A stretch of DNA of 44,105 nucleotides, from positions 1-44,105 of the forward strand of contig JAFGLR010000164.1 in NCBI GenBank assembly GCA_016927955.1, written 5' to 3'. A program made the position numbers and the translations under genes. This DNA comes from Dehalococcoidales bacterium. Lineage in GTDB: Bacteria; Chloroflexota; Dehalococcoidia; Dehalococcoidales; JAFGLR01. Within the stretch, counting starts at the first letter, position 1, and each line of letters starts with the position of its first letter. Shown in pieces: positions 17,260 to 41,951 of the stretch. Below the pieces are notes generated by a model. The model had not been told where the DNA came from and ran no database searches. It saw only the letters and a program-made list of their open reading frames with translations.

Positions 17260-17324
17260 TTCGTTCCTCCTGGGCAACACTTATTGGTGTTCGTGCTAGC
17301 TATTATGAAATATTACTCCGTTCC

Positions 17325-21705: not shown

Positions 21706-22452
21706 TTAATACCCTATTTTAATTTCTTTACTCATTACATTTGTTCCATCAAACGATTTTACATCTTTAATTGCTTTATCATATACGGATAGTATGGGCT
21801 TACTTAGGAAAAGGACAGTAGTAATTTCGTTTATTCCGGATTTCGCAGTCATTTTACACGAAAGAAGTACGCCTGATCCGGTCGCTCCGCCTATTTCCGC
21901 CTGCTGATTTTCCTCTTCCGGTGTATATCCCATCAAAGCGATCCCCATGCCCGATAAATTTCCAGGGTTTTCATTCAATGTATCTTTATCCGGCTTCATC
22001 AAAATCGTTTGGAGCCCTTTGCTATCAGAATAGCTCTTGAAAAAATCCCCCTCTTCTATTCCGTCGTATTGAAAAACAGCCGGGTCGAATTGCAGGTTAA
22101 CTTGTGCACCACGGATTATTTGATTCGTATTAACTATTATATCGATAGTAAACTCATCACCCGGGTTTATTTGTTCTTTATTTATGGAGATACTGAAGTA
22201 ATTGGGACCCGGGTCTGCCGGATTCGAAATATCGGTTCCGGTAGTGCTATTTGACGTATTTGTATTTGGGGTAGAAATACTTGTTGTGGTAGTTTTTAAA
22301 TTAGTGGCAAAACTATTATTAGAGCCATCAAGGGGTGGAGCTATATCATCAAGAGAATTTCCGGAGCACGCTGTAAATACCGGTAACAACAAACTGATAA
22401 TACCAAAGACAACTAAAAATAATTTAAATTTCTTTTCGAACCTGCGGTTCAC
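21706..22452 (-). CDS. lipoprotein with a single cohesin-like domain
   Basis: Lipobox VFTAC; NYFSISINKEQINPGDEFTIDIIVNTNQIIRGAQVNLQFDPAVFQYDGIEEGDFFKSYSDSKG is cohesin-like. Confidence 0.75.
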   Translation of the reverse strand: MNRRFEKKFKLFLVVFGIISLLLPVFTACSGNSLDDIAPPLDGSNNSFATNLKTTTTSISTPNTNTSNSTTGTDISNPADPGPNYFSISINKEQINPGDEFTIDIIVNTNQIIRGAQVNLQFDPAVFQYDGIEEGDFFKSYSDSKGLQTILMKPDKDTLNENPGNLSGMGIALMGYTPEEENQQAEIGGATGSGVLLSCKMTAKSGINEITTVLFLSKPILSVYDKAIKDVKSFDGTNVMSKEIKIGY

Positions 22453-22453: not shown

Positions 22454-25400
22454 TTATTCTCCTCCCGAATTCTTTTTAATAATGCTAATCTTGATTAAGT
22501 TGTCCGACCCCGCGCCGGGATCATATCCCAGCTTTATCCTGGTCGGCGCATCATAAGTGGCTTTCACTGGGTCTCTACCTAATACAATCCCGATTTCATT
22601 ACATTTGACATTGCCCCGGTCGATCTCAATAGTTCGCACCAGTTGTTCCTCATATCCTCCTGCTGATATATATCCGGCAATATTCACGGCCTCGTCGTTC
22701 ACAACTTCGGCTTTATACCCATTTACAACGGTGGACTCACTTTCTTCCATAAGAATATCGCTCGCCGTAGTGTGTTGAGACCTCTTTCTCCAGGCATTAT
22801 AAGTAAAAGCGATTTTTTGCCTTTTTAGAATAGCCAGGGCAATTACCGCACCTATCGCCAGTATCCCCGCTAATATCGGAACAAATGGGAAAGGAATAAA
22901 TCGGCTCAACGCAAAACTAGCATCCGATACGATGGTGAATATGCTGAAATGGTCGGTAGTCCACATAATAAGTTTTTTCTCCGTATCGACTTGAGAGCTA
23001 ATCTTTTCCCAACTTGAATTTTCTGTACTATAATAAATTACTTTCAGGTTTTTCTCCACTGCTCCCTTAGGCAAAGTATCGGGATCGTATACAACCGTAA
23101 TAGAAATAGGTGTAGAAAACTGACTACCGTCCGGAGCGAGATCATATGTCGACACTGGAATGATATCGCCACTGCTACTCTTGGATAAGCTGGCACGACT
23201 TATGCTGATTGTCTTTAACGGGTCTCCGTACTTATCCAACATTTGGGTGCCTTTCTTAATCTCAATCCTTACAGCGATTGCTCCTTCCCCATCCTGAACC
23301 TCGGTTAAGATGATATTTTCGGTAGCCACACCAGTCGTACTTACTTTACTACTGATATCGAAAACCACCGGAGTTTGTGCTGTGTTATTATTGTTATTGT
23401 CGTTATTATTGCCCTGATCGTTCGTATTTACTCCTGTTGAATTTCCTGTTGTGGTGGTTTGAGTCATAGAAGGATTACTACTGTCACTAAAAATAAACCC
23501 GGCCAGTGTAGCTGTACCGCCGGGAGTTGTGACGCTTACGTTCCCGCTGGTACCGTTACCTACAATCGCGGTAATCTGGGTACCGGAATTAACGGTAAAA
23601 CTCGTAGCCGCCGTACCACCGAACTTGACGTTGGTAGCCCCGGTAAAGTTCGTTCCAGTAATCACGATAGTGTCACCCGTTTTACCCGAAGTCGGGCTGA
23701 ACGAGGTTATCGTCGGCGCTCCGGTATTCGAAGTACTATTAAAGGTAAACCCGGCTAGAGTAGCTGTCCCGCCGGGAGTAGTTACACTCACGTTCCCGCT
23801 GGTACCGTTGCCTACAATCGCGGTAATCTGGGTACCGGAATTAACGGTAAAACTTGTAGCCGCCGTGCCGCCGAGTTTGACATTGGTAGCCCCGGTAAAG
23901 TTGGTCCCCGTAATCACGATAGTGTCACCCGTTTTACCCGAAGTCGGGCTGAACGAGGTTATCGTCGGCGCTGCTGCATTGAAAGTAAATCCGTCTTTAG
24001 TTGCTGTCCCATTGGGAGTGGTTACGCTAACGGTACCACTGGAACCGGTGCTTAGTATTGCCGTTATCTGAGTAGCGGAATCTACTGTAAAGCTAGCCGC
24101 AGCAGTGCCTCCGAAACTCACTGCTGTCGCCCCGGTAAAGTTGGTCCCCGTAATCACGATAGTGTCACCCGTTTTACCCGAAGTCGGGCTGAATGAGGTT
24201 ATATTGGGTGCGGTGGAGCTGATGGTGATATTTCCATTATTAACCGTGGCATTAATAATTGATTCACTTGTATCAGTACTGACTTTAAAATTTGACAACT
24301 CGATATTTGTGCTACCAGTAACTCCGGTCTTAGTTTTAAATTTTAAGGTTGCCAGCGTACCCGTTCCCGATAGGCCGATACTCACTCCGGCGCCGGCGTA
24401 GCTGATACCGGTAACTTTACCGTTCGTATTATCGATGACCGGTGTAGATGGAGTAAGCCAAGTACCGTCTTCCGAATCAATGTATTCCTTTAACCAGGTG
24501 TCTGCCGTGAGCGAAATATATTCCAGTTTCGTGGCATCGAAACTAATATCAGTCTGCCAGCCCAAAATAAACGGAGTAGTACTCAATATCAGTTCAACCG
24601 TAAATTCTGTGTCCGGTGCAACGCTGGTTGCAGATGGTGTAACCGTCACGGTTACATCGCTGCGCGGTGATAAAAAGGTAAATCCTGCAAAAGTACCGGT
24701 ACCTCCCGGTGTAGTTACGCTTACCGAGCCGCTCGACCCGGTATCCACAATTGCTGTTATATTCGTAGTCGAGTTGACGACGAAACTGGCAGCTGCGGTG
24801 CCGCCGAATTTAACCGATGAAACGTTTTCAAAATATTCGCCGCTAATTATTACCGTGGTTCCTTTAGCTGCAGTAGTTGGAGATACCGAACTAATTACAG
24901 GCTCCGGGTAATAAGTAAAGCCCGATTTGACTGCCGTTCCGTTGGGCGTAGTAACGAGAATATCTCCGGTGGCTCCCGAACCGACTACAGCCGTAATTTG
25001 TGTATCCGAAACCACATCCTTACTTGAGGAGGAGATACCGCCGAATTTAACTGTTGTTGCCCCGGTAAAATTCTTACCGTTAATAGTTATTGTAGTTCCC
25101 GTACCGCCGGATGACGGTGTAAATGATGTTACCACAGGCCCGCTAGCAGTACCGCTAAAGATAAATCCTCCTTTAGTTGCTGTTCCCATGGGACCACCTA
25201 CGCTTACGGTACCGGTAGAACCCTTACCCACAACTGCGGTTATCTGGCTAGAAGAGTTAACCGTAAAACTCGTTGCTAATGTAGTGCCGAAGCTAACACT
25301 GGTTGCCCCGGTAAAATTGGTACCGGTAATGGTTACCGTGTTACCGATATTGGCTGTTGTAGGTGAAAAAGATGTTATCGATGGGGCTGTGGCAGTTGTA

Positions 25401-28400
25401 GTAAAGGTAAAACCATCCTTGGTACCTGTCCCTCCATCAGGAGTAGTGACGCTTACGGAGCCACTACTTCCACGGCCAACTACTGCGGTTATTTTAGTGC
25501 TGGAGTCCACCGTAAAACTCTTTGCTTCGGTTGTTCCGAATGTAACGACTGAAGCACCGGTAAAATTTGTCCCGTTTATTACTACGGTATTGTTGTAGGT
25601 GGCTGAAGTCGGTGTAAAAGAGGTGATGGCAGGCGCGGCCGCAGTAAAGGTAAATCCTGACTTGGTTCCGGTACCGCTGGGGTTCGTAACGCTAATATCA
25701 CCGCTAGAACCCAAGCCGATAATTGCAGTAATCTGTATGTCGGAATCTACGGTAAAACTTTGTGCCGCTGTGCCCCCGAATTTTACAGCGGTGATATCGG
25801 TAAAATTACTTCCTGTAATCGTTACGGTAGTGCCGGTAGTTCCGCTTGTCGGCGTGAAAGAAGTAATCTCGGGAACTGCTCCAGCTTCTATTGTAATGGA
25901 ACCGGCTGTTAAGGTAGCCGGGGAAATTTTATAAGGTCCGGGAGTACCGTGGTCGTCACTCAAAAAAACATCAACCGGAGTGATACTCGTGCCACCTGTT
26001 ACCCCACTCTTTACCGTAAAGGTAAGCGTACATAACGTCCCCGCCCCATTTAACCCCGTGGGAACTCCCAATCCGGCGTAGGAAATACCAGTGATATGAC
26101 CGTTTGTATTATCAACAACCGGATTATATGCTTGCCAGGTACCACCGTGACTTGTGATATAGTCTTTGAGAAAGCTGCCTTCGGTAATGCCCGTATACTG
26201 TAGCTTGGTGGCGTCGAAATCGACGTTCCCCCTCCAACCCAAAAACCGCTTGGTACTGCCAACGAAATCGACCTTCAAATCTACCGTTATAGTTTCACCC
26301 GCAATAACAGTACCGGATGATGGATTTGCGGTAAAACTAATATTCGCACCGGAAGGAACAAATGCAAATCCGCCCTGCAAACTGCCCAGCGAATATGACC
26401 GACTGTCCGCTGTGCTAATGGTAATCGCACCACTATGACCGTTTCCAACTGTGGCTATAATTTGCGTATCGGTCTTACTCACTATGGTTCCGGCAGCCGA
26501 ACCGAATGTAACCGAGTTGACATTATCCAAATCGGTGCCGGTGATGGTTATTTGGTCCACCGCGTCGCCATAGGCCGGAGAGAATGTGGTTATCGAGAGA
26601 GGGATAAAGCTAAATCCGGTTTTCGTAGCAGTCCCGGCAGCGGTAGTTACTGCCACACAGCTTCCCGTACCTGTTCCGTTCAATACAGCGACAATCTGGG
26701 TATCGGTATTATTGGTAATCGTCGCCGCGGTGCCGCTTTCTCCGGATAATTTTGAGCCTATTTTTACAGTGGTGGCGCCTGCCAGATTGGAACCGCTTAT
26801 CGTAATTGTGTCGTTATATTGTCCCGAAGACGGACTGATTGCAGTTATTACCGGAGCGGTGGCGGTAACGCTGTAGGTAAACCCTTCTTTCGAAGCTATA
26901 CCTCCTGGAGTTTCCACCGAAACTGGGCCACTTGAACCATTACCCAATATTGCGGTTATCTGAGTTGCCGAATCTATATTAAAACTTGCTACCACAGTAC
27001 TGCCGACGGTAACTCCGGTAGCTCCGATAAGGTTAGTTCCGGTGATTACTAGTGTGGTGCCCGAACTTCCGTTGGTAGGAGTGAATGACGTAATGGATGG
27101 GGCTGGAATAAAGGCAAATCCCGGCAGGACACCAATCCCGTTATTGGTAGTTACTCTAACATCTCCGGTGGTTCCGTTACCAACCACAGCCGTGATTTGG
27201 GAGTCACAATTGAACGTATAGCTGGCCGCAGCTATGCCACCAATACTTACCCCCGTCACCCCGGTAAAATGTAATCCGAATATTGTTATTTTAGTGCCGT
27301 TCCCACCTGATTTACTACCCAGTTTATTAATGACCGAGGTTATTGCAGGTGCTGTTGCCGGACTACTATAAGTAAATCCATCTTTAGCAGATATGCCCCC
27401 AGAAGTTTCTACCGTGATTGCTCCACTCGACCCATTACCCAGAACAGCTGTAATTTGGGTGTTGGAATTAACCGAAAAGGTAGCAGCGGCAGTTCCCCCG
27501 AAACTCACCATCGTCGTCCCGGTGAGATTAGTCCCGGTGATCACGATAGAATCTCCACTGCCACCTGAGGTTGGTGTAAAGGAGGTGATAGTGGGTGCCG
27601 GTGCATTTGGGTTTGCTATATAGGTAAATCCGGTCTTAGTCCCGGTTCCACCGGATGTTGTAACGCTGACCGTTCCGCTGGAACCGCCGCCTAATACTGC
27701 CGTGATTTGTGTAGCGGAGTTAACGGTAAAGCTTTGTGCCGGCGTCCCGCCGAAGCTTACGGCGGTGGCCCCGATCAGACCCGTACCGGAAATAACTATG
27801 GAGTCGCCCAATTGACCCGATGTCGGACTAAAAGACATTATCGTCGGTACCGGAACAGCCCCGGTCGATACTGTAGCCGTAACAACGGTGGCGTTTATTA
27901 TCTGGGCGGCCTGTTCGTCACTGATCTTAACGTTAGTCGGTTTAATAATAGTGTCACCGGTCGCCCCGGTTTTAACCTCGAATGTAAGAGTGCAGAGGGT
28001 TCCCTGACCGGTCTGTCCAGTACTAATACCGAGACTGGAACCGCCTAAACTTACCTTACCTGTCGCATTATCGATCATTGCTTGCACCGGGAAATAGTTG
28101 CCTCCACGTCCCGTCACGAAATCACTAAACCATGTCCCTTGTTCCGCCGCAGTGCAGGTCAGTTTCGTCGGGTCGAATAATATATCACTCTGCCAGCCTA
28201 AGAATGCAACTGATGTATTAAGGTCCAGATTCACGGTAAATGTATCACCCGGGTCGGCACTGGTACCAGAAGGAGTTGCAGTGAGCGTGATATCGCTCCT
28301 CGGAGCCAAATAGGTGAATCCGGTAGCTGTGGCCGTACCCCCCGGTGTGGTCACACTTACCGTGCCGCTCGAGCCTTCTCCCACGACGGCAGTAATCTGG

Positions 28401-31400
28401 TCGATAGCATTTACCTCAAAGCTTGCGGCGGCAGTGCCGCCGAAACTTACTGTCGTAGCTTCGGTAAAATTATTGCCGGCAATCACAACTGTCGTGCCGT
28501 TAATCCCCGTCGTCGGAGAGAAAGAGGTAATCGAAGGCCCCGGAACGTAAATAAATCCGGTTTTGGTAGCAGTACCGCCGAGTGTCGTAACGCTGACCGT
28601 CCCACTGGAGCCGCTGCCCACTGTTGCCGTAATTTGAGTAGTAGAATTAACGGTAAAGCTTTGTGCTGCCGTACCGCCGAAACTTACTGCAGTCGCGCCC
28701 GTAAATCCGCTGCCTATAATTGTTACTGACGTCCCGTTACCTCCTGACGTCGGTGTAAATGATGAGATACTCGGAGTTGTGACAGCGCCGGTGAAAGAGA
28801 AACCGTCTTTGGTGGCATTACCGCCGGGTGTCGTAACGCTGACTACTCCATTCGAACCGCTGCCCACTATCGCCGTAATTTGAGTGGCAGAATTAACGGT
28901 AAAGCTTTGTGCTGCCGTATCGCCGAAACTCACTGCGGTTGCTCCGCTAAGACCTGTGCCGGTAATAATTATGGAGTCGCCCTGCTGGCCCGATGTCGGG
29001 TTAAAAGATGTTATTGTCGGCGTCGTTAAAAATGTAAACCCTGATTTGGTAGCGATACCGTCAGCGGTAATTACCGCCACATAACCGCTAGCCCCCGAAC
29101 CTACAGTCGCTGTAATAAGGGTATCGGTATTCGTGATTACTGTGGCAGTTGCACCCCCGTTACCCGATGCATCCGTTCCCAGTTTAACTGCTAGGGCATT
29201 CCCCAAATTATAACCGGCAATGCTGATTGTATCTCCGGTCCCACATGACGGAGGGGAAAAAAGCGTAATCGACGGCAATGACGGTACGTAAGTAAAACCG
29301 GCTTTCGTCGCTGAGCCGCTTGCCGTAGTAACAATCACATTACCACTCGTTCCGGCACCCACTACGGCTGTTATCTGGTAATCCGTATCGACGTGGAAAC
29401 TTGTCGCCGAAGTGCCGCCGAAGCTTACTGCTGAAGTACCGATGAAATTGGTCCCGATAATCGTAATCGTATCCCCGGTTTTACCCGATGATGGCGAAAA
29501 TCGTAGAATGGTCGGCGGTGTTGAGCTAACCTGTTGATTCCAATGAGTACCGATAGCCACAACGTCTAATACATCAACCATTCCGTCCCGGTTCACATCA
29601 TCACGGATCCAATGCGGACTCCCTGTTTCTCCCCAATGGTTTCCAATGGAAACCACATCCAGGATATCGCACACTCCGTCCTCGTTGACATCCCAGTCGG
29701 GGCTACGTATATTCTGTATCGTAATATTTCCCGCGGTCACGATCGTATCGACCTTGACCCCACCTTCACCGGCTACGGTTATATTAATCGGAGTTACATA
29801 GGTTGTAACCGATGTATCCGGGGTAACGGGAAAACTCTCGAAACTCAGCGTGCAAAGTATCCCCTCACCGGTCAGCCCGGTAGCCACGCCGATACCGGCA
29901 TAACTAAGACCGGTAACTTTGCCGTTCACATTATCGATATAATAAGGCATTGATGTTATCGAACCGTGCATACTCGTTATGTAGTTCCTCAGGAAACCAC
30001 CCTCGATAATTCCGGTACATTGTAATCTAGCAGGATCGAAATTGATTTCTCCCTGCCATCCCAAGAACGGTATTTGGGTATCTATTTTTAGTTCTACTGT
30101 AACGTTATCCCCGCCGTTTATCGTATTGCTGGAGGGCACCGCCGTAACGCGGGTATTGGGGGTAGGCAAGAAAGTAAAAAGCCCGCTGCTTACTACAGGG
30201 TTTGGACTCAACGGCGTTTTCACCGATACATGACCCGAGGCTCCGGAACCTACTCTAGCTATTATTTGCGATGTTGTATTGGATATTATCGTCCCGACGA
30301 CTCCACCAACACCGCTGGCGTCGGTACCGAATTTAACCTCGGTAGCTCCATCCAGATTGTTACCTATTATTGTGATATTATCGCCCTCATGGGCCGAAAT
30401 AGGTGTAAAGATAGATACACCGGCAACCAAACCATTGTAAGTAAATCCGGGCAGAGTAGCCGTACCACCGGGTGAGGATACGTACACGCTGCCGCTCGCA
30501 CCGTAACCGACTGTCGCCGTTAATTGCGTCGACGAATCTATTGTGAAGCTCGAAGCGTTTACTCCTCCAAACTTAACGGATGTTACATACTCAAGGTTTG
30601 TTCCCGTAATCGTTACCTTCTCGCCGCTGTAAGCTGCAGTCGGGGTAAAGGAAGCGATGGTAGACGGCGGAGCGAAGGTAAAGCCCGCCTTGCTGCCGGT
30701 GCCGTAAGCCCCGGTAACCGTAACCTGTCCGCTGGAACCGCTCCCAACTATCGCTGTTATTTGTGTATCGGAATTCACGGTGAGACTCTGGGCGGCCGTG
30801 CCACCAAAGCTCACTGCGGTCGCTCCGGTAAAATGGCTTCCGGTAATGACCACAGTCGCGCCGCTCCCTGCAGTGACGGGTGAAAACGAGCTAACGACCG
30901 GTACCGGTAAAAAGGTGAAACCGTTGTTGGTTGCGGTACCACCCAGCGTAGTTACATTGACCGTACCGCTGCTACCACCGGCAACAACAGCCGTTATCTG
31001 AGTATCGGAGTCCACAGTAAAGTTTTGTGCTGCCGTGCCCCCGAAACTCACCGTAGTTGCCCCGGTGAAATTAGTACCGGTTATTATTACCGAATCTCCT
31101 TGTTTTCCCGATGCAGGATTATAAGCGGTAATCGTTGGTGCCGGGATAAACGTGAAGCCGTTTTTACTTGCCGTACCTCTGGGTGAAACCACGCCGACCG
31201 AGCCGCTACTACCACCGGCAACAATAGCCGTTATCTGAGTATCGGAGTCCGCAGAAAAGCTTTGTGCTGCCGTACCGCCGAAGCTTACTGCGGTTGCCCC
31301 GGTAAAACCGCTCCCGGTTATTATTATCGTTGTTCCGTTGCCGCCTGATGTCGGGGCAAATGATTCTATAGCCGGAGCCGCCAAAAAACCAAACCCGTCT

Positions 31401-32407
31401 TTAGTTGCGGTGCCGCCCTGTGTGGTTACACTGACCGAGCCGCTACTGCCACCGGCAACAATAGCCGTTATCTGAGTATCGGAGTCCACAGTAAAGCTCT
31501 GTGCTGCCGTGCCTCCGAAACTCACCGCAGTCGCTCCGATAAAGCCGGTACCTGTGATTATTATGGAGTCGCCCTGCTTCCCCGATATGGGGTTGAAAGC
31601 GGTAATCGTCGGCCCGGTGACGAAGGTAAAGCCGTCTTTAGTCGCGGTGCCACCCGGTGTAGTTACACTGACCACTCCGCTGCTGCCACTGGCAACAATG
31701 ACGGTTATCTGAGTATCGGAATTAACGATAAAGCTCTGCGCCGCCGTGCCGCCGAAACTCACCGCGTACGCTTCGGTAAAATTTGTGCCTGTAATTATTA
31801 TTGAGTCACCTTGCTTCCCTGACGAGGGATTAAAATCAGTGATGGTTGGCGCCGGAGGCGGGCTGCCGATATTCACACTTCCTGAAGTAACCGTTACGCC
31901 GCTTACAGGTATTGCCCCCTCACCCGAAACCTTCACGTTTGCTAGGTTTATCGGGGTGACAGCATCAATAGCATCCTTAGCGTGGAACGTTATCGTACAG
32001 AGAGTTCCGCTGCCGGTAAGACCCCCGGTCGTTACATTTATCGCCGCACAACCAAAAGCCGTTATCATACCGCTGGTTTGAGCACCGGGAGTAAAGTAGG
32101 TAAAACCACCGTGAGTGGTAGCAAAGTTCTTTAAAAATGTACCTTCGGTAACACTCACATAATCGATTTTAGTGGCGTCATAGCTTAAATCGGCCTGCCA
32201 GCCCAGGAAAGGAGTCGTCGTATCGATAGTAATATCCACCGTGAAGGTAGCCCCATTGGCAACGGACTGGGCGGCTGGTGAAATGCTTACGGTGCATGAA
32301 CTGGCGGCAACCCCATTCACTGGAAACGCCAGTAGACTAACCAGTAAGCAAATAATAAGTCCGACACTGAAGACCGGTTTTATCTTTATAATTCTTTTAT
32401 TAGACAT
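22454..32407 (-). CDS. giant membrane-anchored scaffold: five cohesin-like domains, about 26 TIG/IPT repeats, internal dockerin, C-terminal TM and cytoplasmic tail
   Basis: Cohesin-like segments begin at VSISPAAQSVANGATFTVDI, RVTAVPSSNTINGGDNVTVEL, ITLTATPSGTSADPGDTFTVNL, ISFTANPSSGTVIAGETITVDL and VTVTVTPSATSVAPDTEFTVEL. Internal dockerin WDVNEDGVCDILDVVSIGNHWGET...DVNRDGMVDVLDVVAIGTHWNQQ. C-terminal TM FIPFPFVPILAGILAIGAVIALAIL. Start set at MSNKRIIKIK. Confidence 0.92.
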   Translation of the reverse strand: MSNKRIIKIKPVFSVGLIICLLVSLLAFPVNGVAASSCTVSISPAAQSVANGATFTVDITIDTTTPFLGWQADLSYDATKIDYVSVTEGTFLKNFATTHGGFTYFTPGAQTSGMITAFGCAAINVTTGGLTGSGTLCTITFHAKDAIDAVTPINLANVKVSGEGAIPVSGVTVTSGSVNIGSPPPAPTITDFNPSSGKQGDSIIITGTNFTEAYAVSFGGTAAQSFIVNSDTQITVIVASGSSGVVSVTTPGGTATKDGFTFVTGPTITAFNPISGKQGDSIIITGTGFIGATAVSFGGTAAQSFTVDSDTQITAIVAGGSSGSVSVTTQGGTATKDGFGFLAAPAIESFAPTSGGNGTTIIITGSGFTGATAVSFGGTAAQSFSADSDTQITAIVAGGSSGSVGVVSPRGTASKNGFTFIPAPTITAYNPASGKQGDSVIITGTNFTGATTVSFGGTAAQNFTVDSDTQITAVVAGGSSGTVNVTTLGGTATNNGFTFLPVPVVSSFSPVTAGSGATVVITGSHFTGATAVSFGGTAAQSLTVNSDTQITAIVGSGSSGQVTVTGAYGTGSKAGFTFAPPSTIASFTPTAAYSGEKVTITGTNLEYVTSVKFGGVNASSFTIDSSTQLTATVGYGASGSVYVSSPGGTATLPGFTYNGLVAGVSIFTPISAHEGDNITIIGNNLDGATEVKFGTDASGVGGVVGTIISNTTSQIIARVGSGASGHVSVKTPLSPNPVVSSGLFTFLPTPNTRVTAVPSSNTINGGDNVTVELKIDTQIPFLGWQGEINFDPARLQCTGIIEGGFLRNYITSMHGSITSMPYYIDNVNGKVTGLSYAGIGVATGLTGEGILCTLSFESFPVTPDTSVTTYVTPINITVAGEGGVKVDTIVTAGNITIQNIRSPDWDVNEDGVCDILDVVSIGNHWGETGSPHWIRDDVNRDGMVDVLDVVAIGTHWNQQVSSTPPTILRFSPSSGKTGDTITIIGTNFIGTSAVSFGGTSATSFHVDTDYQITAVVGAGTSGNVIVTTASGSATKAGFTYVPSLPSITLFSPPSCGTGDTISIAGYNLGNALAVKLGTDASGNGGATATVITNTDTLITATVGSGASGYVAVITADGIATKSGFTFLTTPTITSFNPTSGQQGDSIIITGTGLSGATAVSFGDTAAQSFTVNSATQITAIVGSGSNGVVSVTTPGGNATKDGFSFTGAVTTPSISSFTPTSGGNGTSVTIIGSGFTGATAVSFGGTAAQSFTVNSTTQITATVGSGSSGTVSVTTLGGTATKTGFIYVPGPSITSFSPTTGINGTTVVIAGNNFTEATTVSFGGTAAASFEVNAIDQITAVVGEGSSGTVSVTTPGGTATATGFTYLAPRSDITLTATPSGTSADPGDTFTVNLDLNTSVAFLGWQSDILFDPTKLTCTAAEQGTWFSDFVTGRGGNYFPVQAMIDNATGKVSLGGSSLGISTGQTGQGTLCTLTFEVKTGATGDTIIKPTNVKISDEQAAQIINATVVTATVSTGAVPVPTIMSFSPTSGQLGDSIVISGTGLIGATAVSFGGTPAQSFTVNSATQITAVLGGGSSGTVSVTTSGGTGTKTGFTYIANPNAPAPTITSFTPTSGGSGDSIVITGTNLTGTTMVSFGGTAAATFSVNSNTQITAVLGNGSSGAITVETSGGISAKDGFTYSSPATAPAITSVINKLGSKSGGNGTKITIFGLHFTGVTGVSIGGIAAASYTFNCDSQITAVVGNGTTGDVRVTTNNGIGVLPGFAFIPAPSITSFTPTNGSSGTTLVITGTNLIGATGVTVGSTVVASFNIDSATQITAILGNGSSGPVSVETPGGIASKEGFTYSVTATAPVITAISPSSGQYNDTITISGSNLAGATTVKIGSKLSGESGTAATITNNTDTQIVAVLNGTGTGSCVAVTTAAGTATKTGFSFIPLSITTFSPAYGDAVDQITITGTDLDNVNSVTFGSAAGTIVSKTDTQIIATVGNGHSGAITISTADSRSYSLGSLQGGFAFVPSGANISFTANPSSGTVIAGETITVDLKVDFVGSTKRFLGWRGNVDFDATKLQYTGITEGSFLKDYITSHGGTWQAYNPVVDNTNGHITGISYAGLGVPTGLNGAGTLCTLTFTVKSGVTGGTSITPVDVFLSDDHGTPGPYKISPATLTAGSITIEAGAVPEITSFTPTSGTTGTTVTITGSNFTDITAVKFGGTAAQSFTVDSDIQITAIIGLGSSGDISVTNPSGTGTKSGFTFTAAAPAITSFTPTSATYNNTVVINGTNFTGASVVTFGTTEAKSFTVDSSTKITAVVGRGSSGSVSVTTPDGGTGTKDGFTFTTTATAPSITSFSPTTANIGNTVTITGTNFTGATSVSFGTTLATSFTVNSSSQITAVVGKGSTGTVSVGGPMGTATKGGFIFSGTASGPVVTSFTPSSGGTGTTITINGKNFTGATTVKFGGISSSSKDVVSDTQITAVVGSGATGDILVTTPNGTAVKSGFTYYPEPVISSVSPTTAAKGTTVIISGEYFENVSSVKFGGTAAASFVVNSTTNITAIVDTGSSGSVSVTTPGGTGTFAGFTFLSPRSDVTVTVTPSATSVAPDTEFTVELILSTTPFILGWQTDISFDATKLEYISLTADTWLKEYIDSEDGTWLTPSTPVIDNTNGKVTGISYAGAGVSIGLSGTGTLATLKFKTKTGVTGSTNIELSNFKVSTDTSESIINATVNNGNITISSTAPNITSFSPTSGKTGDTIVITGTNFTGATAVSFGGTAAASFTVDSATQITAILSTGSSGTVSVTTPNGTATKDGFTFNAAAPTITSFSPTSGKTGDTIVITGTNFTGATNVKLGGTAATSFTVNSGTQITAIVGNGTSGNVSVTTPGGTATLAGFTFNSTSNTGAPTITSFSPTSGKTGDTIVITGTNFTGATNVKFGGTAATSFTVNSGTQITAIVGNGTSGNVSVTTPGGTATLAGFIFSDSSNPSMTQTTTTGNSTGVNTNDQGNNNDNNNNNTAQTPVVFDISSKVSTTGVATENIILTEVQDGEGAIAVRIEIKKGTQMLDKYGDPLKTISISRASLSKSSSGDIIPVSTYDLAPDGSQFSTPISITVVYDPDTLPKGAVEKNLKVIYYSTENSSWEKISSQVDTEKKLIMWTTDHFSIFTIVSDASFALSRFIPFPFVPILAGILAIGAVIALAILKRQKIAFTYNAWRKRSQHTTASDILMEESESTVVNGYKAEVVNDEAVNIAGYISAGGYEEQLVRTIEIDRGNVKCNEIGIVLGRDPVKATYDAPTRIKLGYDPGAGSDNLIKISIIKKNSGGE
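29533..29698 (-). other. internal type I dockerin module within the giant scaffold
   Basis: Two DxNxDGxxDxxD loops separated by IGNHWGETGSPHWIRD. Confidence 0.88.
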
Positions 32408-32445
32408 TGCCACTCCTCTCTGTTTTCCGGAATGTTCCACGTTAT

Positions 32446-34017
32446 TTATCTGACTGGTCTTTTCGGCAAAGTTCTACGTCGATTTTTCGACTTATTCCGT
32501 CTGACAATTATTATTAGAATTATTCCGAAAACCGCCACGCCGCCGATTATCCCTGCTACCAGGCCCCAGTTCGTCCCCGAAGAAATGGATGAGATGCCGG
32601 TCGTATCTTCGTCCGTGAACGGGTTATTTGTGCTGTTACCGTTGGTAGAACTGTCTGAAGTATGGTCTCCTCCCAACCCGATGACCGTTCCGGTCAGGTC
32701 AAGTACTTGCACGTCGAAGCTGATAGTGCCCGTGGCAATGTTTCTCGTGAGGTTGGGCATTATCCATTTAGTACCGTTGTAATATGCCAGGATAAGCCTA
32801 TCCAGGGTAAAGTCTTTTACCTCTTCCGGCGTATAATGTACGGTTACATGAGCAGTACCCTGGGTCAAACCGGGCGCTCTCACATCCACGTATTTGATAG
32901 CGGTCTTTCCGGTACCGCCCTGGGTAACAGGGGCGCTGAACGGTACACCGGTGCCCGGGTCTCCCGAATATCTGCCAATAATAACCGCTCCGAAACCGGC
33001 GGCCCCTCTTAACTCTACCTCTACTCCTGCTTTTTCAATCGCATCGACGTAAAAATTGGCGCCGTCTTCTTCAAAATCATAATCCACCACTACGAGACTG
33101 TCCGGGTCCATTCCGGGCAGTACCAAATTCACCCCGAAGGCGGTCGTAGGAGTCTCAGTTACTATTATCTTATCCGTCCTTGTATCAATAACCGTTGCCA
33201 CGCCCGTTATAATACTCGATTCATATATGTACTCACCGGCAGGAAGACCCGTGGCCGGACCGGGATGGGCAATAAATGTACGTTCAAAACTGGGAATAAG
33301 TGAGGGGTTCTCTAACAATATCTCCGCCTGGGCTACCGTATTACCAGTTATGTCTTTCACAACCACTCTGTTGAAAACACTTTCGCCTTTAATCCTCGTG
33401 ATACCGGTGTTCAACAACGTGGTCTGTATTTCCAAAGGTTTACCGGTTATCGCACCGGTAACTGCCAGGTTTACGATCTGACCGGCTGGATTATGCTTGG
33501 TACTGCCTACTTTTAAAATAATCGGGATATCTATAGCTATGATTGCGGCGGCTCCCTGTCCCGTCCCGTAAGGATTGCTGAATATACTTAATAAGGCGTA
33601 TTTTTCCCCCTCGGTTGCGTCAGCCGGTACGTTTATGGCGAAGTTTATTTTTACCTGCTCGCCCGGTTCAATACGGAAGGTAGCAGGAGTGACATTCGAA
33701 ATATATGTCCTGGCACTGAACGGGGTATCGTCTTGCGGTTCCAGTTCTGTCGTTACCCCTTGCCGGGTCTGTCCCAATCCCTTGACCACCACATTCATAT
33801 CCATGATGCTTGCCGTCGGGTCGCTGGTAAAGGTTATCGTTTTATTAAGTGTCTCTCCGGGAGTAACAAATAAGTCATCCGAGTAATCGATTTTAGCCGG
33901 TTCCACAGTGAAAGCGTTATCGGCTAACACTCTTGTACTGTTGAAATTTACGAATCCTGCAGCTATTATTACAATGGCAACTAAATAAACTAGAAAGCGG
34001 GATATTCTCAATTCCAT
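32446..34017 (-). CDS. membrane-anchored surface protein with DUF916-like beta-sandwich N-terminus
   Basis: Signal peptide, FTVEPAKIDYSDDLFVTPGETLNKTITFTSD, C-terminal TM WGLVAGIIGGVAVFGIILIIIV followed by a basic tail. Confidence 0.7.
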   Translation of the reverse strand: MELRISRFLVYLVAIVIIAAGFVNFNSTRVLADNAFTVEPAKIDYSDDLFVTPGETLNKTITFTSDPTASIMDMNVVVKGLGQTRQGVTTELEPQDDTPFSARTYISNVTPATFRIEPGEQVKINFAINVPADATEGEKYALLSIFSNPYGTGQGAAAIIAIDIPIILKVGSTKHNPAGQIVNLAVTGAITGKPLEIQTTLLNTGITRIKGESVFNRVVVKDITGNTVAQAEILLENPSLIPSFERTFIAHPGPATGLPAGEYIYESSIITGVATVIDTRTDKIIVTETPTTAFGVNLVLPGMDPDSLVVVDYDFEEDGANFYVDAIEKAGVEVELRGAAGFGAVIIGRYSGDPGTGVPFSAPVTQGGTGKTAIKYVDVRAPGLTQGTAHVTVHYTPEEVKDFTLDRLILAYYNGTKWIMPNLTRNIATGTISFDVQVLDLTGTVIGLGGDHTSDSSTNGNSTNNPFTDEDTTGISSISSGTNWGLVAGIIGGVAVFGIILIIIVRRNKSKNRRRTLPKRPVR

Positions 34018-34113: not shown

Positions 34114-36126
34114 CTAGTAATTAATGGTTGAAGCCGTGAAAGTAACCGTGATCTTGTAGTATGAATCTTTTGTATATGGGTCGGTCCAAAGAACCGGTTG
34201 AGTAAACATCAGGTTGACATCCTGACCGCCGGTGCAGTAATCTTGCCCGAATGGAGTGCCGGTTGCGATTTCTTGGTCGCTTCCATTGAGGATAATTCCA
34301 TTGATTTTCAGCGGGTTGGCAAGCTTAACGCTGGTATCGTAGAGAGTACCGGTATATTTGGTCATGAAGCCGTTATTGGTACCCCTGGCAGTTACCTTCC
34401 AGTCGGTGTTCGAGAAGATAGTCATGGCGCGCATAGCCGAGTTGTTCATGGAAGGCTGTAGGTCCCAGCAGCAGACATCCCAAGGAGCAACGAAGGTAAG
34501 AACCGGAGCGAGGGTTGCCGGAATATCTAACTGGTCCACCTGGTCCGCCGGTTGAGCTATCGGGAGGTCGCAGCTGCCGATAATTAACGTGACAACAGCG
34601 TTGGTACCCGGCAGGACATTCGCCATCGGGTCGCCATCCGGCCCGACGAAAATCGGGTTACTAACGTACAGGATGGTATCAACGCCGGCTAAAAGCTGTT
34701 CCTGGGTTGAGGAATCATCGACGGACATGAAGGTTACGACAGCTAAAACGTCACCGACGTCTTGCGGGTCGTATGCCGGGTAGGTTCCCGTGCCATGGTC
34801 GCCGCCTATGAGAGCATAGGCAATCGTGAGAGCACCGGGCTGAGCATCGATGTTCGAGTATATTTCCAAACCTTCTGTAGCGGCAAAATCGGCAAATCCG
34901 TTACCTATTTTAACGCTGTCAGCAACGTATTGGACTTTTTCAGGGTCATAGTTGATGGTCGCCTGCCAACCGCGGATCGTAGCTGCTGTGTCATCGAGGT
35001 TTGCTTCGACCTGGATTTCGAACATATCACCGGTCGGTTTGGCTGCCTGGGTTACGGGAGTGAGAGCGATGTTGCCTGACGGGGCAAAATACTCAAAGGC
35101 CTGAGCTACCGTAGCACTGCCGCCGTAAGTCGTCACTTCTACATCGTTGACACCGATGGGAGTACCGGCAGCTACTATAGCCTGGACGGAAGTATCGGAA
35201 TAGCCCGGGACGACGGCTGCCGGGGTGACTCCGACTTTAATACTCTGGACGTTATTCGGGACAGTGAGAAAACCGGAGCCGGTGACGGTGATAACCGTAT
35301 TGGTGGTGCCGAAAGCGGGGTCAACCGCGGTAGCGGTCGGAGCGGCGACAAAGGTAAAGCCGGCTTTGGTCGCTGTGCCGCCGGGATTTTCTACGGATAC
35401 TGAGCCGGAAGCGCCGGCACCGACGGTGGCCACAATCTGGGTGGCGGTGTTGGAAACGATGGTACCGGCAATGCCGCCGAAGGTTACAGCGGAAGCACTG
35501 CTCAGGTTGGTACCGGTAATGGTGATGTTAACACCGTTACCGCCGAAAGCTGGGGTGAAGCCGGTGATGGCGGGTGAAGGCCAGACGACATTGGCTGCAC
35601 CATTAACGAGTACCGTGCCGGGAATAGTGACAGCATTCTGGTCGGACAATTTGCTGGCCGGAGGGGCAGCGAAAGTTATTGGGCTGTTCGTCGGTGTAGC
35701 ACCCGGATTCACGGTGAAAGACATCACAGCCAGTGTGCCGTTGCCGGTAGCACCACCGGTCGGGCCGCCGGTCTGGGCGATGGCGAAAGCATCGATTATA
35801 CCGGGAGTCGAAGAATCGCCGGGATTGAAGTAGGTATTGCCGGTGCCGGCATAATCCTTAATGAAAGTGCCTTCGGAAACCGAGTTGAAGGTCAGGACGG
35901 CCGTGTCGTAGTTTATGGTGAACTGGCAACCGCGGACCTGGTAATCGGTATCTACATTAATGTTTACGCTAAAGGTCTGGCCGGGATTTACGGTGGCCGG
36001 TGCTTCCATGGTAACGCTTGAATAGCTGTCGGCAGCCGCAACGGCGGAAACAGGTATCAGGCTGACCAGGGCTACTGCGGGCAGCACCAACCCTACCACC
36101 TTTTTGATTAGTTTACCTAAATTCAC
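34114..36126 (-). CDS. secreted protein with two cohesin-like domains and TIG repeats
   Basis: SSVTMEAPATVNPGQTFSVNINVDTDYQVRGCQFTINYDTAVLTFNSVSEGTFIKDY and GNIALTPVTQAAKPTGDMFEIQVEANLDDTAATIRGWQATINYDPEKVQYV are cohesin-like; TIG units ITGFTPAFGGNGVNITITGTNL. Confidence 0.82.
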   Translation of the reverse strand: MNLGKLIKKVVGLVLPAVALVSLIPVSAVAAADSYSSVTMEAPATVNPGQTFSVNINVDTDYQVRGCQFTINYDTAVLTFNSVSEGTFIKDYAGTGNTYFNPGDSSTPGIIDAFAIAQTGGPTGGATGNGTLAVMSFTVNPGATPTNSPITFAAPPASKLSDQNAVTIPGTVLVNGAANVVWPSPAITGFTPAFGGNGVNITITGTNLSSASAVTFGGIAGTIVSNTATQIVATVGAGASGSVSVENPGGTATKAGFTFVAAPTATAVDPAFGTTNTVITVTGSGFLTVPNNVQSIKVGVTPAAVVPGYSDTSVQAIVAAGTPIGVNDVEVTTYGGSATVAQAFEYFAPSGNIALTPVTQAAKPTGDMFEIQVEANLDDTAATIRGWQATINYDPEKVQYVADSVKIGNGFADFAATEGLEIYSNIDAQPGALTIAYALIGGDHGTGTYPAYDPQDVGDVLAVVTFMSVDDSSTQEQLLAGVDTILYVSNPIFVGPDGDPMANVLPGTNAVVTLIIGSCDLPIAQPADQVDQLDIPATLAPVLTFVAPWDVCCWDLQPSMNNSAMRAMTIFSNTDWKVTARGTNNGFMTKYTGTLYDTSVKLANPLKINGIILNGSDQEIATGTPFGQDYCTGGQDVNLMFTQPVLWTDPYTKDSYYKITVTFTASTINY

Positions 36127-36182: not shown

Positions 36183-37361
36183 TTACCATTCATTGGCCGG
36201 GGTCGTGTAGGTGATGTTCCACCACAGACCGACGGAAACGACATCGTTGATATCGATACTGCCGTCGCGGTTGACATCTTTGGTGATAACGTAGCCTTGT
36301 TGGCCGGTGCTTTTGTTCCAGGACAGACCGATGCTTACGATATCGTTGATATCGACAGTACTGCTGGCATCAACATCCTGGCGGGGGTTAACCATGACGA
36401 AGCCCTGGTCTTTAACGGTGTTCTGACCGGCATCGCTGTACAGGTAATCACGGAAAGCCGCGCCGTAAGCGCCGAGATTGGGAGTAACACCGTTGGCGAC
36501 GAGGTAAAGATACCGGGAGATAGCATAGGTCCCCCTGGTAACGTTCTGGTCGGTCGGAACAACCGCCGGAGCCGCATCATTAGCTTTGACGGGTATGGCT
36601 CTTACGTCGCCGCTGATGCTGCCGAGATAACCGACACCGATGTATCCGATAGAGCCAACAGCGGTGGCATTAACATCGGCAACCACCTCCGCATTGGAGT
36701 CTTTCCTGGTGTAACCAGCGGTAGCGTATAGAGGACCGAGATATGCCTCTTCAGCTGCTTCATTCATAGCACACTTGGATACGATGGTATCGCGGGTGCC
36801 GGAACCGATAATCCTGGCGATAGGAAAGATGTCGGTAGCGGGCCAGGCCGCATTGATATCGCTCCATTTTGTATAGATACCTTCGTAGATGTCGCCGATT
36901 ACAGTAGTAGTCAGGGCGTCGATAGCCGATAGGGAGCCGTCATCGTGGATGATGACGCAAACACCGTCACGAGCGACGACATCGTTTCTAATATCGGGGT
37001 AGGAGCTTTTCTTATTGCTGGAGCACATACCGAGATTCGCATCTCCCTGCGTTACGGCATAGGCGCCGTGGCCGGAGCCGCCGGAGTAGAGCTGGGCAAT
37101 GCAGCCCGAGCCGCCGGCACTGGCCTGGAAAGGACCCACCGCCTGCACCTGTCCGACCGTGGTCACACCAAGGGAGGCTGCGACTATGGGATACAGCGTG
37201 GTGGAGCCGGCGATTCTCAAATTCGAGCTAGAATCCCATGCATCTAGATAGTCATCGGCAGCTAATACCGGAAGAGCAGCGGTTACCAGGGCAGTAGCTG
37301 CTAATACGATACTAACAGCTCTGACGCTGAATTTTGATTTCAAGAACCTCTTGAAGTTCAC
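36183..37361 (-). CDS. secreted PstS-like binding protein with a C-terminal dockerin
   Basis: LRIAGSTTLYPIVAASLG, ASAGGSGCIAQLYSGG, ARIIGSGTRDTIVSKCAMNE, SIGYIGVGYLG (PstS-like), then DVDASSTVDINDIVSIGLSWNKSTGQQGYVITKDVNRDGSIDINDVVSVGLWWN (dockerin, ~36183-36389). No lipobox. Confidence 0.92.
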   Translation of the reverse strand: MNFKRFLKSKFSVRAVSIVLAATALVTAALPVLAADDYLDAWDSSSNLRIAGSTTLYPIVAASLGVTTVGQVQAVGPFQASAGGSGCIAQLYSGGSGHGAYAVTQGDANLGMCSSNKKSSYPDIRNDVVARDGVCVIIHDDGSLSAIDALTTTVIGDIYEGIYTKWSDINAAWPATDIFPIARIIGSGTRDTIVSKCAMNEAAEEAYLGPLYATAGYTRKDSNAEVVADVNATAVGSIGYIGVGYLGSISGDVRAIPVKANDAAPAVVPTDQNVTRGTYAISRYLYLVANGVTPNLGAYGAAFRDYLYSDAGQNTVKDQGFVMVNPRQDVDASSTVDINDIVSIGLSWNKSTGQQGYVITKDVNRDGSIDINDVVSVGLWWNITYTTPANEW

Positions 37362-38071: not shown

Positions 38072-38917
38072 TTACCCGAATCTTCCGGTAATATATTCCT
38101 CGGTCTTTTTATTTTCCGGGCGGCTGAAGATGTTTGTCGTCGTATTATATTCGACCAGTTCTCCCAGCAGCATAAAGGAAGTCCAGTCCGAGACTCGGGC
38201 AGCCTGTTGCATGTTGTGGGTAACGATAACGATGGTATATTGTTTTTTCAAATCGGCTATCAATTCCTCGATTTTCAATGTCGATATGGGGTCGAGAGCA
38301 GAGCAGGGTTCATCCAGGAGTAATATCTCCGGTTCGACGGCTAAAGCCCGGGCGATACACAATCGCTGCTGCTGGCCGCCGGATAGTGACGCCCCGGATT
38401 GATTAAGCTTATCCTTTACCTCTTCCCATAAAGCAGCTTGCCGCAGGCTTTTTTCAACAATCTCCTCGGTTTCGTACTTTCTCCCCCAAATCGTGGTTAG
38501 GCGTACACCGGCGGAAACATTATCGGCAATAGACATATTAGGGAATGGTGTAGGTTTTTGAAAGACCATTCCCATTTGTCTACGAATTAAAACCGGGTCG
38601 ACGTTGTTGGTATAAATATTAATACCGTCCAACAGTATCCTGCCGGTAACCCTAGCCCCTCTAGAAACTTCGTGAAGACGGTTTAGACAGCGGATTAATG
38701 TGGACTTTCCGCAACCGGACGGTCCGATAATCGCTGTAACTGACTGAGGTTTAATGGTCATACTTACGTTTTTTATGGCTATCGTTGCCCCGTACCAGGC
38801 ACTCAATTTCTTAATTTCCAGCAAACCTATTCCCTGCTTCTCGATTGCCTCTTTTTCAAAATTAGTTGAACTGTCATCTTCCGGCTTATCGGAAACGTAT
38901 AATTCTTTTACACTCAT
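38072..38917 (-). CDS. pstB: phosphate ABC transporter ATP-binding protein PstB
   Basis: [20 protein letters not shown], signature [28 protein letters not shown]. Confidence 0.95.
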
Positions 38918-38935
38918 ATTTCACCTTCCTTGAAT

Positions 38936-39790
38936 TCACCTGGTTCGGCGGCTGGAAAGCCAGCGTACAAAGATACTGATGATTAATATCAGAATGACCA
39001 GCAGAAAAGCCCCGGCCCAGGCTTGCTGATTTTGGTCGGGATAAGCGGATATGGCATATTTATATATTTGCAGCGGTAACGCCGCAATAGGTTTTAAAAG
39101 GCCGTCAAAGCCGAAATAGTTACCGAAGGCGGTAAAAATCAGCGGGGCAGTCTCGCCGGCAATTCTGGCTACTCCCAGCATTATGCCGGTGATTATTCCG
39201 GTAATCGCACCGGGCATAATTACTCCTAACACGGTACGCCAGCGGGGTATGCCGAGAGCCAAAGCCGCCTCACGAATAGAATTCGGTACCAGCTTTATAG
39301 ACTCCTCCGTGGTACGGGTTACCATAGGTATCATTATTACAGCCAAAGCTATACCGGCGGATAACGCTGAATAAGCTTGCAGGGGACGTACTACGATGGC
39401 GTATGCGAACACCCCAACCACTATTGAGGGGACACCGGCTAAAATGTCGGCTGCAAAGCGGACGCTTGATGCCATTTTTTTACCGCCGAATTCGGACAGG
39501 TAAGTACCTGCCATTAATCCGACCGGCAGGGCTATCACGGAAGCGATAAGAGTTAAAATCACCGTTCCGATTATTTCATTTTTCATCCCGCCTCCGGATT
39601 CACCGGCCGGCACAGCGGCATTAACCAGAAAATCAATATTAATATATGAAATACCATTAATTAAGGTATATCCGAGGATTACCAGCAGCAATATTACAGC
39701 GATGCCGGCCGCCAGAGTACATAACGTGAGAGTTATCCGGCTGGTCCACTTGCGAATATAGTAACCCTGTGCATCTACCTTATTGAACAT
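38936..39790 (-). CDS. pstA: phosphate ABC transporter permease PstA
   Basis: EESIKLVPNSIREAALALGIPRWRTVLGVIMPGAITGIITGIMLGVARIAGETAPLIFTA. Confidence 0.95.
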   Translation of the reverse strand: MFNKVDAQGYYIRKWTSRITLTLCTLAAGIAVILLLVILGYTLINGISYINIDFLVNAAVPAGESGGGMKNEIIGTVILTLIASVIALPVGLMAGTYLSEFGGKKMASSVRFAADILAGVPSIVVGVFAYAIVVRPLQAYSALSAGIALAVIMIPMVTRTTEESIKLVPNSIREAALALGIPRWRTVLGVIMPGAITGIITGIMLGVARIAGETAPLIFTAFGNYFGFDGLLKPIAALPLQIYKYAISAYPDQNQQAWAGAFLLVILILIISIFVRWLSSRRTR

Positions 39791-40748
39791 TTTCAGCCTT
39801 AACCTTTGTCATCCGCCAGACTAAAACCCTGGCAATGACATTAGCAAATAAAGTCACCCCGAAAAGAACCAGAGCTAATTCAATCAAGCTGCTGATGAAG
39901 ATTCCGGAAGAAGCTTCCGCGAATTCGCTGGCGATTTTACTGGCAATGGTAGTTCCCGGCGAAAAAAGTGAAGCTGTCACCCGGTATTCGTTTCCGATAA
40001 CCATAGTTACTGCCATGGTTTCCCCCAATGCCCTGCCTAAACCCAAAATAATAGCTCCCACAAGTCCGGACCGGCAATATGGAATAACAGCTCTCCTGAT
40101 GGTTTCCCAACGGGTCGCTCCCAGTGCCAGCATGGCTTCTCTTTGAGTGTCAGGAACGGCTTGCATGGCATCACGGCTAACCGCCGTTATAATTGGTATC
40201 ATCATAATAGATAGGATGATTCCGGCGGCTAAAAAACCTACTCCAAAAGGGGGGCCTTGAAAAAACGGTAGGAATCCAAGATGGGTACCAAGCCAGGCCT
40301 CGACCGGTTCTTGTAAAAACGGAACTAATACGAAAAGTCCCCACAGGCCGATAATCACACTGGGTATGGCCGCGAGCATTTCGATCAGAAATGAAGCCGG
40401 CCGGCGAATCCAGGGTGGAGCAAGCTCCACCAGAAAGAGGGCTGCTCCCAGGCTGATAGGAATTGCTATAATAATGCCGAGAAGAGAACTTAACAGAGTT
40501 CCAAATATTGCCGGTAAGGCTCCGAAATCTCCTTGTACTACATCCCAGGAGGTACTTCCGAAAAAGGATAGGCCGAATTTTTGTATCGAGGGAACAGCAT
40601 CGATATTGAGGATTACTAACATACCCACCAATATCGCGATTACCAGAAGCGCAAACGCCAGGGTAATTTTGGGGAAAATCCGGTCTCCAATACTCTTCCG
40701 GTGCAATTTCCCGGTTAGCTCCTCTGGGGTAGGCGGGTAAGATACCAT
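39780..40748 (-). CDS. pstC: phosphate ABC transporter permease PstC
   Basis: GDFGALPAIFGTL, MQAVPDTQREAMLALGATRWETIRRAVIPYCRSGLVGAIILGLGRALGETMAVTMVIGN. Confidence 0.95.
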   Translation of the reverse strand: MVSYPPTPEELTGKLHRKSIGDRIFPKITLAFALLVIAILVGMLVILNIDAVPSIQKFGLSFFGSTSWDVVQGDFGALPAIFGTLLSSLLGIIIAIPISLGAALFLVELAPPWIRRPASFLIEMLAAIPSVIIGLWGLFVLVPFLQEPVEAWLGTHLGFLPFFQGPPFGVGFLAAGIILSIMMIPIITAVSRDAMQAVPDTQREAMLALGATRWETIRRAVIPYCRSGLVGAIILGLGRALGETMAVTMVIGNEYRVTASLFSPGTTIASKIASEFAEASSGIFISSLIELALVLFGVTLFANVIARVLVWRMTKVKAENVQ

Positions 40749-40841
40749 TAGTTTCCTTTTATCACTTACAATTTATTTTAAGGAAAAAGATTAAAATGAA
40801 TAACTCTTTATTTTCTTATTCCGGTATAGCCGGACGGTCAT

Positions 40842-41951
40842 TTATTGTGACAGTATCGGTTTCCCCCCGAACTGTAACGACTGGATTAATTTTTCGGTAT
40901 TAGCTACGGCCGCACTTGATAAAGGTGCGTAATCAAGAGACGTACAGTACTGTTGGCCTTCATGCACGGCCCACCGGAGAACTTCGGCTAGGATTTTCCC
41001 TTTTATTTCATTTTTCTGGTTAACATATGCCAGTATCCAGGTAAATCCGACGATGGGATAAGCGTCCGGATTGGATGAGTTGGTTATCATAATTTTCATA
41101 TGGTCGGGTAATCCTATACCTTCGGAGGCAGCGGTAGCTCCTTCCAAGGAAGGTAACAGGTAGTTCCCTGAAATATTTTGTAATTGAGCGTAAGGCAGGT
41201 TATTCTGTTTGGCATATGCAAGTTCAACATATCCGATTGAACTAGTGATGTTTTTCACCTGACCGGCTACTCCGGCATTGCCTTGGCCCCCGATATCCCC
41301 GGGCCAGCTCACCGAAGTAGCGTTCCCAACCTTAATTCTCCAATCATCACTAATTTTTGAAAGGTAATTCGTCACTATGAACGTTGTGCCGGAACCGTCG
41401 GAACGGTGGACTACCGCAATATCGGTGTCCGGAAGGTGTAAATCGGGATTAAGCACGGCGATAGCCGGGTCATTCCATTTGATTATTCTCTTAAGATAAA
41501 TATCCGCCAGAACAGTTCCCGTAAGTTTTAGCTGTCCGGTATCGATACCGGGAACGTTATAAATGATAGCAACGGCACCGCTGGTCATCGGAATATGTAA
41601 TATAGGACCGCCGGATGCTTCGGCAAGACTCTGCTGTTCCTGAGTCATAATACCGTCGGAGGCTCCAAAATCCACCGTTCCGGCCGTAATTTGCTGGATT
41701 CCGGCACCGGAACCGACAGCTTGATAGTTTATTTTGTTACCGGTCGTCTTATAATATTCGTCGAACCACTTTGTGTATAGCGGGTTAGGGAAAGTGGCAC
41801 CGGCTCCGTTTAAATTAGCTCCGGATGGACTTGTGGAAGTACTTACCCCGTTAGTTACCGTGTCCGAGGAGGAACATCCGATAACTGTGAGCCCGGTTAT
41901 CATCAAAGCGAATATAATACCAAACCATTTAGCGGTTAGCCTTTTTAACAT
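40842..41951 (-). CDS. pstS: phosphate-binding lipoprotein PstS
   Basis: Lipobox TVIGC, NGAGATFPNPLYTKWFDEYYKTTGNKINYQAVGSGAGIQQI, HRSDGSGTTFIVTNYLSKIS. Confidence 0.95.
   Translation of the reverse strand: MLKRLTAKWFGIIFALMITGLTVIGCSSSDTVTNGVSTSTSPSGANLNGAGATFPNPLYTKWFDEYYKTTGNKINYQAVGSGAGIQQITAGTVDFGASDGIMTQEQQSLAEASGGPILHIPMTSGAVAIIYNVPGIDTGQLKLTGTVLADIYLKRIIKWNDPAIAVLNPDLHLPDTDIAVVHRSDGSGTTFIVTNYLSKISDDWRIKVGNATSVSWPGDIGGQGNAGVAGQVKNITSSIGYVELAYAKQNNLPYAQLQNISGNYLLPSLEGATAASEGIGLPDHMKIMITNSSNPDAYPIVGFTWILAYVNQKNEIKGKILAEVLRWAVHEGQQYCTSLDYAPLSSAAVANTEKLIQSLQFGGKPILSQ

Follow-up and report, generated by a model that had tools for sequence, protein, structure and literature searches.

A secreted PstS-family protein with a C-terminal dockerin, encoded with cohesins and a divergent Pst permease in Chloroflexota: a probable tethered ABC receptor

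Almost all that is known of cohesin-dockerin pairing comes from enzyme complexes that degrade cellulose, and what the many noncellulosomal pairs do is, to our knowledge, still an open question. A gene from a Dehalococcoidales bacterium raises this question in a specific form: what does a dockerin do at the end of a PstS-like binding protein? We analysed the whole 44,105-nucleotide stretch of DNA that carries the gene (hereafter the window) and searched for its relatives. The genome assembly that contains the window (G000) is fragmented into 177 contigs, with 6% estimated contamination. The gene in question is as follows:

36183-37361, minus strand: PBP-dockerin gene; signal peptide, PstS-family (PBP_like_2) domain, C-terminal dockerin (about 36210-36386), no lipobox

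The open reading frame placed here by the original prediction was real, and its strand, which had been left unstated, proved to be minus; the frame encodes 392 aa from a GTG start with a GGAG-type ribosome site. The plus-strand reading, interrupted by stops, was dropped. Residues 46-310 matched the Pfam family PBP_like_2 (64.7 bits, E 1.5e-17, cut-off 27), and the single sequence matched solved phosphate-binding proteins (4q8r, E 9e-11), which bore out the PstS-like fold proposed for the N-terminal part. The N-terminal part of a four-member PBP-dockerin profile (A2) likewise retrieved phosphate-binding proteins (1twy, E 5.8e-38), and the phosphate-site motifs GSTT, GSG.G and SGTR were kept in all four aligned proteins, with small variants in the second motif. 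The NCBIfam model ptsS_2 matched at E 6.4e-34 with 117.5 bits, under its curated cut-off of 206.6, so the protein was classed as a divergent PstS-family member and not as a confirmed PstS.

The signal peptide seen in the sequence is classical and cleavable (MNFKRFLKSKF...LPVLA-ADD) and lacks a lipobox, as had been proposed. None of the five PBP-dockerins in which a lipobox was sought had one, the copy at L048 being cut N-terminally by a contig end, and identity as an ordinary lipoprotein PstS was dropped on these grounds. The proposal that the neighbouring PstS-like proteins are lipoproteins held for 8927 (IAGC), 40842 (VIGC) and 43503 (LAGC), and was left less secure for 20595, whose motif (PGGC) is less typical.

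The C-terminus (about residues 328-380, DVDASSTVDIND...DVNRDGSIDIND) contains two 12-residue calcium-type loops, each followed by a helix as judged from the sequence (alignment A7); model helices lay at 13-21 and 46-55. A Dockerin_1 search of this genome alone, at a threshold of E 0.001, gave no match, so relatives and a local profile were needed. The window protein as a single query reached PDB dockerins only at E 0.03-0.15, and its dockerin alone scored 10.6 bits against Pfam Dockerin_1, below the cut-off of 22.9. This sub-threshold score and the non-canonical first loop (DVDASSTVDIND) leave room for a generic calcium module of EF-hand-like type, one without cohesin binding that lies near cohesin genes by coincidence. 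We consider such a module very improbable, since profile searches met solved dockerins first and EF-hands only later, and since cohesins adjoin the gene in all five genomes described below and are its sole partners in two of them. A 12-row profile of dockerin modules matched solved dockerins (best 2b59_B, E 6.9e-8), and the four-member PBP-dockerin profile placed dockerin structures at the C-terminus (E 6.5e-7). The L048 orthologue exceeded the Pfam cut-off for both the PBP and the dockerin domain, the latter with 34.6 bits (E 2.2e-8, cut-off 22.9). Structure prediction, which had been suggested as a check, gave a dockerin-like model of the module alone at moderate confidence (pLDDT 72), for which the top 22 Foldseek hits were all dockerins, yet with a best E of only 0.26; the full-length AlphaFold model from a nine-row alignment was too poor to interpret (pLDDT 41.7). 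The nine-row alignment excluded the classical PstS rows 8927 and 40842, which had aligned wrongly with the columns of the dockerin. A chance EF-hand was dropped as the identity of the module on the profile evidence. The predicted two-loop dockerin was thereby upheld, though the window copy is itself sub-threshold: judged by sequence, the module is a dockerin, weakly supported alone and far beyond chance with its relatives, and its binding to cohesin is inferred. We regard it as confirmed at this level that 36183-37361 (minus strand) encodes a secreted, non-lipidated PstS-family binding protein with a C-terminal two-loop dockerin.

The surrounding genes include cohesins, a scaffold and a complete set of Pst-type transporter components:

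34114-36126, minus strand: two-cohesin protein; two cohesins, two TIG, C-terminal beta-type domain; Cohesin E 4.1e-20
32446-34017, minus strand: anchor protein; signal peptide, Ig-like region, C-terminal TM (hydropathy), basic tail
22454-32440, minus strand: scaffold of 3328 aa; at least 5 cohesins, 26 TIG repeats, one internal dockerin, C-terminal TM
21706-22452, minus strand: cohesin lipoprotein; lipobox FTAC; Cohesin E 7.7e-8
20595-21656, minus strand: highly divergent PBP-type probable lipoprotein; PGGC; conserved in L051
19593-20582, minus strand: divergent PstC; TIGR02138 E 1e-44, 152.8 bits, below cut-off 196; one EF-type loop insertion
18200-19651, minus strand: extended PstA; extra N-terminal hydrophobic region; cluster marker
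17325-18203, minus strand: PstB ATPase; TIGR00972 357.6 bits, above cut-off 343.2
15046-17280, minus strand: RCC1-repeat and Fn3-like protein; C-terminal dockerin
12188-15022, minus strand: adaptor-like protein; cohesins, TIG repeats, C-terminal dockerin
10102-11688, minus strand: InlB-like-repeat protein; C-terminal dockerin
38072-41951, minus strand: canonical PstS-PstC-PstA-PstB operon; upstream neighbour, 710 bp from the PBP-dockerin gene
3906-5450, plus strand: PhoU-like gene; 514-aa ORF, PhoU-like domain followed by an aminoglycoside-phosphotransferase-like kinase domain

Downstream of the PBP-dockerin gene, on the same strand and with mostly short intergenic gaps, the genes run in the order listed from 34114 to PstB (17325), and three further dockerin genes (15046, 12188 and 10102) lie past PstB. 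Across the whole genome, 5 of 5 dockerins and 10 of 10 cohesin matches fall in the window, which holds all four dockerin modules besides that of the PBP-dockerin. Because the RCC1-repeat, cohesin-TIG and InlB-like proteins end in dockerins, the scaffold has more than one kind of cargo. Dockerins, a multi-cohesin scaffold and membrane-anchored cohesins are shared with cellulosomes and noncellulosomal systems (Peer et al. 2009, as cited in PMC9012536), whereas the cargo here includes an ABC-transporter receptor, and no glycoside hydrolase or carbohydrate-binding module occurred among the window proteins scanned. A cellulosome was dropped for the latter reason.

The second and third genes of the cluster had features of their own. 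The W-x-[VL] C-terminal domain of the two-cohesin protein (34114-34536) was present in the second cluster gene of all relatives, with leave-one-out profile matches from E 5e-10 to 1e-36 (5e-31 for 34114). The anchor protein aligned with five relatives and was weakly WxLIP-like, PF06030 (WxLIP_PGBD) matching four of the five members below threshold (12.8-15.8 bits, cut-off 27.3). WxL/WxLIP surface complexes belong to Gram-positive bacteria. The two genes resemble such a pair in the W-x-[VL]-motif domain of the second and in the Ig-like TM architecture and recurrent weak WxLIP matches of the third, but there was no Pfam WxL match and every WxLIP match was sub-threshold; they are possibly a distant version of it.

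The linked transporter shares with the Pst importer a PBP_like_2 receptor, PstC/PstA-type permeases and a PstB above the NCBIfam cut-off. It differs in that the cluster receptor is a non-lipoprotein with a dockerin, cohesin genes are built in, PstA has an extra N-terminal region, and both permeases fall under their equivalog cut-offs. For PstA, TIGR00974 covered residues 181-476 only (116 bits, cut-off 193), and the extended protein was 38-44% identical to its relatives. PstC carries a 16-residue insertion (FQQPTSDLNRDGIVDQ, 20421-20468, minus strand) in its first extracellular loop, with a single EF/dockerin-type calcium loop. No other PstC in the alignment has this insertion, which could represent half a dockerin carried by the permease.

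These features bear on the ligand. That PBP, PstC and PstA all miss the phosphate family cut-offs would suit a cohesin-tethered importer for another oxyanion such as molybdate, tungstate, arsenate or phosphonate, as would a related cohesin/dockerin region in another genome (G188), which adjoins a separate ABC transporter with an SBP_bac_11 receptor and whose dockerin proteins carry a molybdopterin-type domain. However, PstB passes the phosphate cut-off, the PBP is homologous to solved phosphate-binding proteins and keeps GSTT, GSG.G and SGTR, and the flanks are canonical PstSCAB and PhoU. We therefore hold a different oxyanion to be unlikely, while still a real possibility: phosphate is the favoured ligand, as predicted from PstB, the PBP motifs and the flanking genes, and other oxyanions stay possible because PstC and PstA are divergent. 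As a separate observation, dockerins were joined to molybdopterin-type (PF00174) and metallophosphatase domains both in the G188 region (L053, 6503-20000) and in a further genome (L052 in G235, 1328-18879). For the transporter beside L053, tungstate or molybdate is possible, and cohesin-linked oxyanion systems may be wider than phosphate.

A conserved order of PBP-dockerin, cohesin protein, membrane anchor, cohesin scaffold, divergent PstC, extended PstA and PstB was found in five deeply separated Chloroflexota, namely the genome of the window and four others:

L051 (G126): 1.73-Mb single-contig, Dehalogenimonas-like genome
L048 (G220): Dehalococcoidia AH-958-E22
L049 and L110 (G393): two contigs, Dehalococcoidia UBA6808
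L109 (G829): same phylum, outside the Dehalococcoidia class

The PBP-dockerins of these relatives were about 30% identical to that of the window, which argues against recent copying, and the PBP domains formed one clade (support 99/96), a grouping to be read with care given its long branches. Contamination is unlikely to be the sole source of the cluster, given its presence in four further genomes, of which one is a single contig. Immediately 3' of the PstA gene at L048, a transposase and an integrase (1854-3909) seemingly truncate its 3' end, and PstB was not seen at this locus. A search of genome contigs with the single protein, and searches of viral contigs, phages and plasmids, returned no PBP-dockerin; L093 (Lokiarchaeota) was rejected as one, being an ordinary PstS without a dockerin. 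The genome samples take in part of Chloroflexota, and other phyla were covered only by coarse pattern searches.

Of 393 class genomes scanned with a profile, four had the extended PstA, and these same four were the ones with a PBP-dockerin. The probability of such a match by chance (four each among 393) is about 1e-9, ignoring shared ancestry and linkage. The class-wide survey of PBP-dockerins used one protein as query and scored few candidates in each genome, so misses are possible; an order-level scan found PBP-dockerins in G000 and G126 only. As a blind test, we extended the scan for PstA alone to the phylum, where it added one genome (G829), and then sought a PBP-dockerin there and found it on the same contig as the extended PstA. 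The whole G126 genome has one dockerin, that of the PBP-dockerin, and three cohesins, all within the cluster, and G829 has one dockerin, again that of the PBP-dockerin, and three cohesin matches, all within the cluster, so the cohesins of both genomes have no other detected partner. Of 294 class genomes, 64 had cohesins; of the Dehalogenimonas-type genomes listed, G126 alone had any.

In G829, a complete PstC permease (BPD_transp_1, E 1.2e-10) shares a single 742-aa ORF with a signal peptide, a TM, a cohesin (24.6 bits against a cut-off of 24.1) and a further region that resembles a cohesin. The fusion was seen in this genome only, and its cohesins are inferred from topology to face outside. 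Like the domain identities and gene order, the co-occurrence, partner counts and fusion can be read directly from the sequences. Synteny across five genomes, co-occurrence with PstA, partner counts and the cohesin-PstC fusion lent support to the earlier suggestion of non-covalent tethering through cohesin, in the absence of binding data.

The best reading of this locus, which we consider probable without binding, ligand or transport data, is an ABC importer whose soluble receptor is held at the membrane by cohesin-dockerin pairing. The product of 36183-37361 (minus strand) would serve a second, divergent Pst ABC importer as its soluble phosphate-type receptor, with a normal signal peptide for export and no lipidation. 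Its calcium-loaded dockerin would plug into the cohesins encoded by the following genes, on membrane-anchored scaffolds and a cohesin lipoprotein, and in G829 into those fused to PstC; this binding is inferred. In an envelope of monoderm type, which has no periplasm, tethering would keep several ligand-catching domains near the mouth of PstC/PstA. The ligand, inferred to be phosphate or a similar oxyanion, would be handed to the permease, with import powered by PstB; both the delivery to PstC/PstA and the envelope type are likewise inferences. Dehalococcoidia are held to be without an outer membrane, so a soluble receptor, once exported, would be lost if nothing tethered it. On the simplest account, itself inferred, the dockerin retains the receptor on cohesins that are either anchored at the importer or fused to it.

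Alternatively, the dockerin might bind cohesin without the protein being a transport receptor: it could be a phosphate scavenger displayed at the surface, a sensor or a structural component of an outer layer built by cohesin-dockerin pairing, with the permease served by the lipoprotein 20595. In general, 20595 may be a second receptor or one whose ligand has changed. This conserved PBP-type protein, 37% identical to its L051 counterpart, lies directly before the divergent PstC in both the window and L051, and the other dockerin proteins of the window (RCC1, InlB-like) are not transport proteins. Yet L048, L110 and L109 have no 20595-like gene between their cohesin gene and PstC, although the PBP-dockerin and the divergent PstC/PstA are present; moreover, the PBP-dockerin is the only dockerin found in G126 and G829, and the cohesin-PstC fusion links cohesin to the permease. 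We judge this explanation improbable and retain the tethered receptor as the working interpretation.

Such an arrangement is not wholly without precedent. In ABC importers such as GlnPQ and OpuA the permease itself carries fused binding domains, and the receptor is likewise physically kept in place, whereas the link proposed here would be non-covalent and could carry several receptors. The earlier remark that no characterised example was known held for the PstS version, of which literature searches of incomplete coverage found none, but not for dockerin-bearing ABC receptors as such, which are already known: a passage on ANME archaea (PLoS Biol 2022, PMC9012536) lists binding proteins of the NikA/OppA and TroA types as common carriers of dockerins. 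Those proteins likewise join a dockerin to the substrate-binding protein of an ABC importer but belong to other receptor families and archaeal hosts, and that passage describes no permease-cohesin fusion or conserved transporter cluster. Literature searches of incomplete coverage gave nothing relevant on dockerin with PstS, on Dehalogenimonas with dockerin, or on cohesin with an ABC transporter tether. Set against that work, the new elements are the family to which the receptor belongs, its occurrence in bacteria, a conserved gene cluster that includes its own permeases, the fusion of permease and cohesin, and the counts of partners.

Whether these clusters form a distinct, phylogenetically scattered class of Chloroflexota ABC importers, in which the receptor docks by its dockerin on the transporter's own cohesins (on scaffolds and once inside PstC) and several exchangeable receptors serve one permease, is in our estimate evenly balanced. 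The cluster offers a small closed case, with one dockerin, few cohesins and one transporter in a single-contig Dehalogenimonas-like genome, in which the function of such a pair is directly testable. If the proposed mechanism is true, it would add a third way, beside lipid anchors and covalent fusion, of keeping ABC receptors at the pump without a periplasm, and a modular design for engineered uptake systems. These results suggest that some bacteria clip nutrient-catching proteins to their uptake pump.
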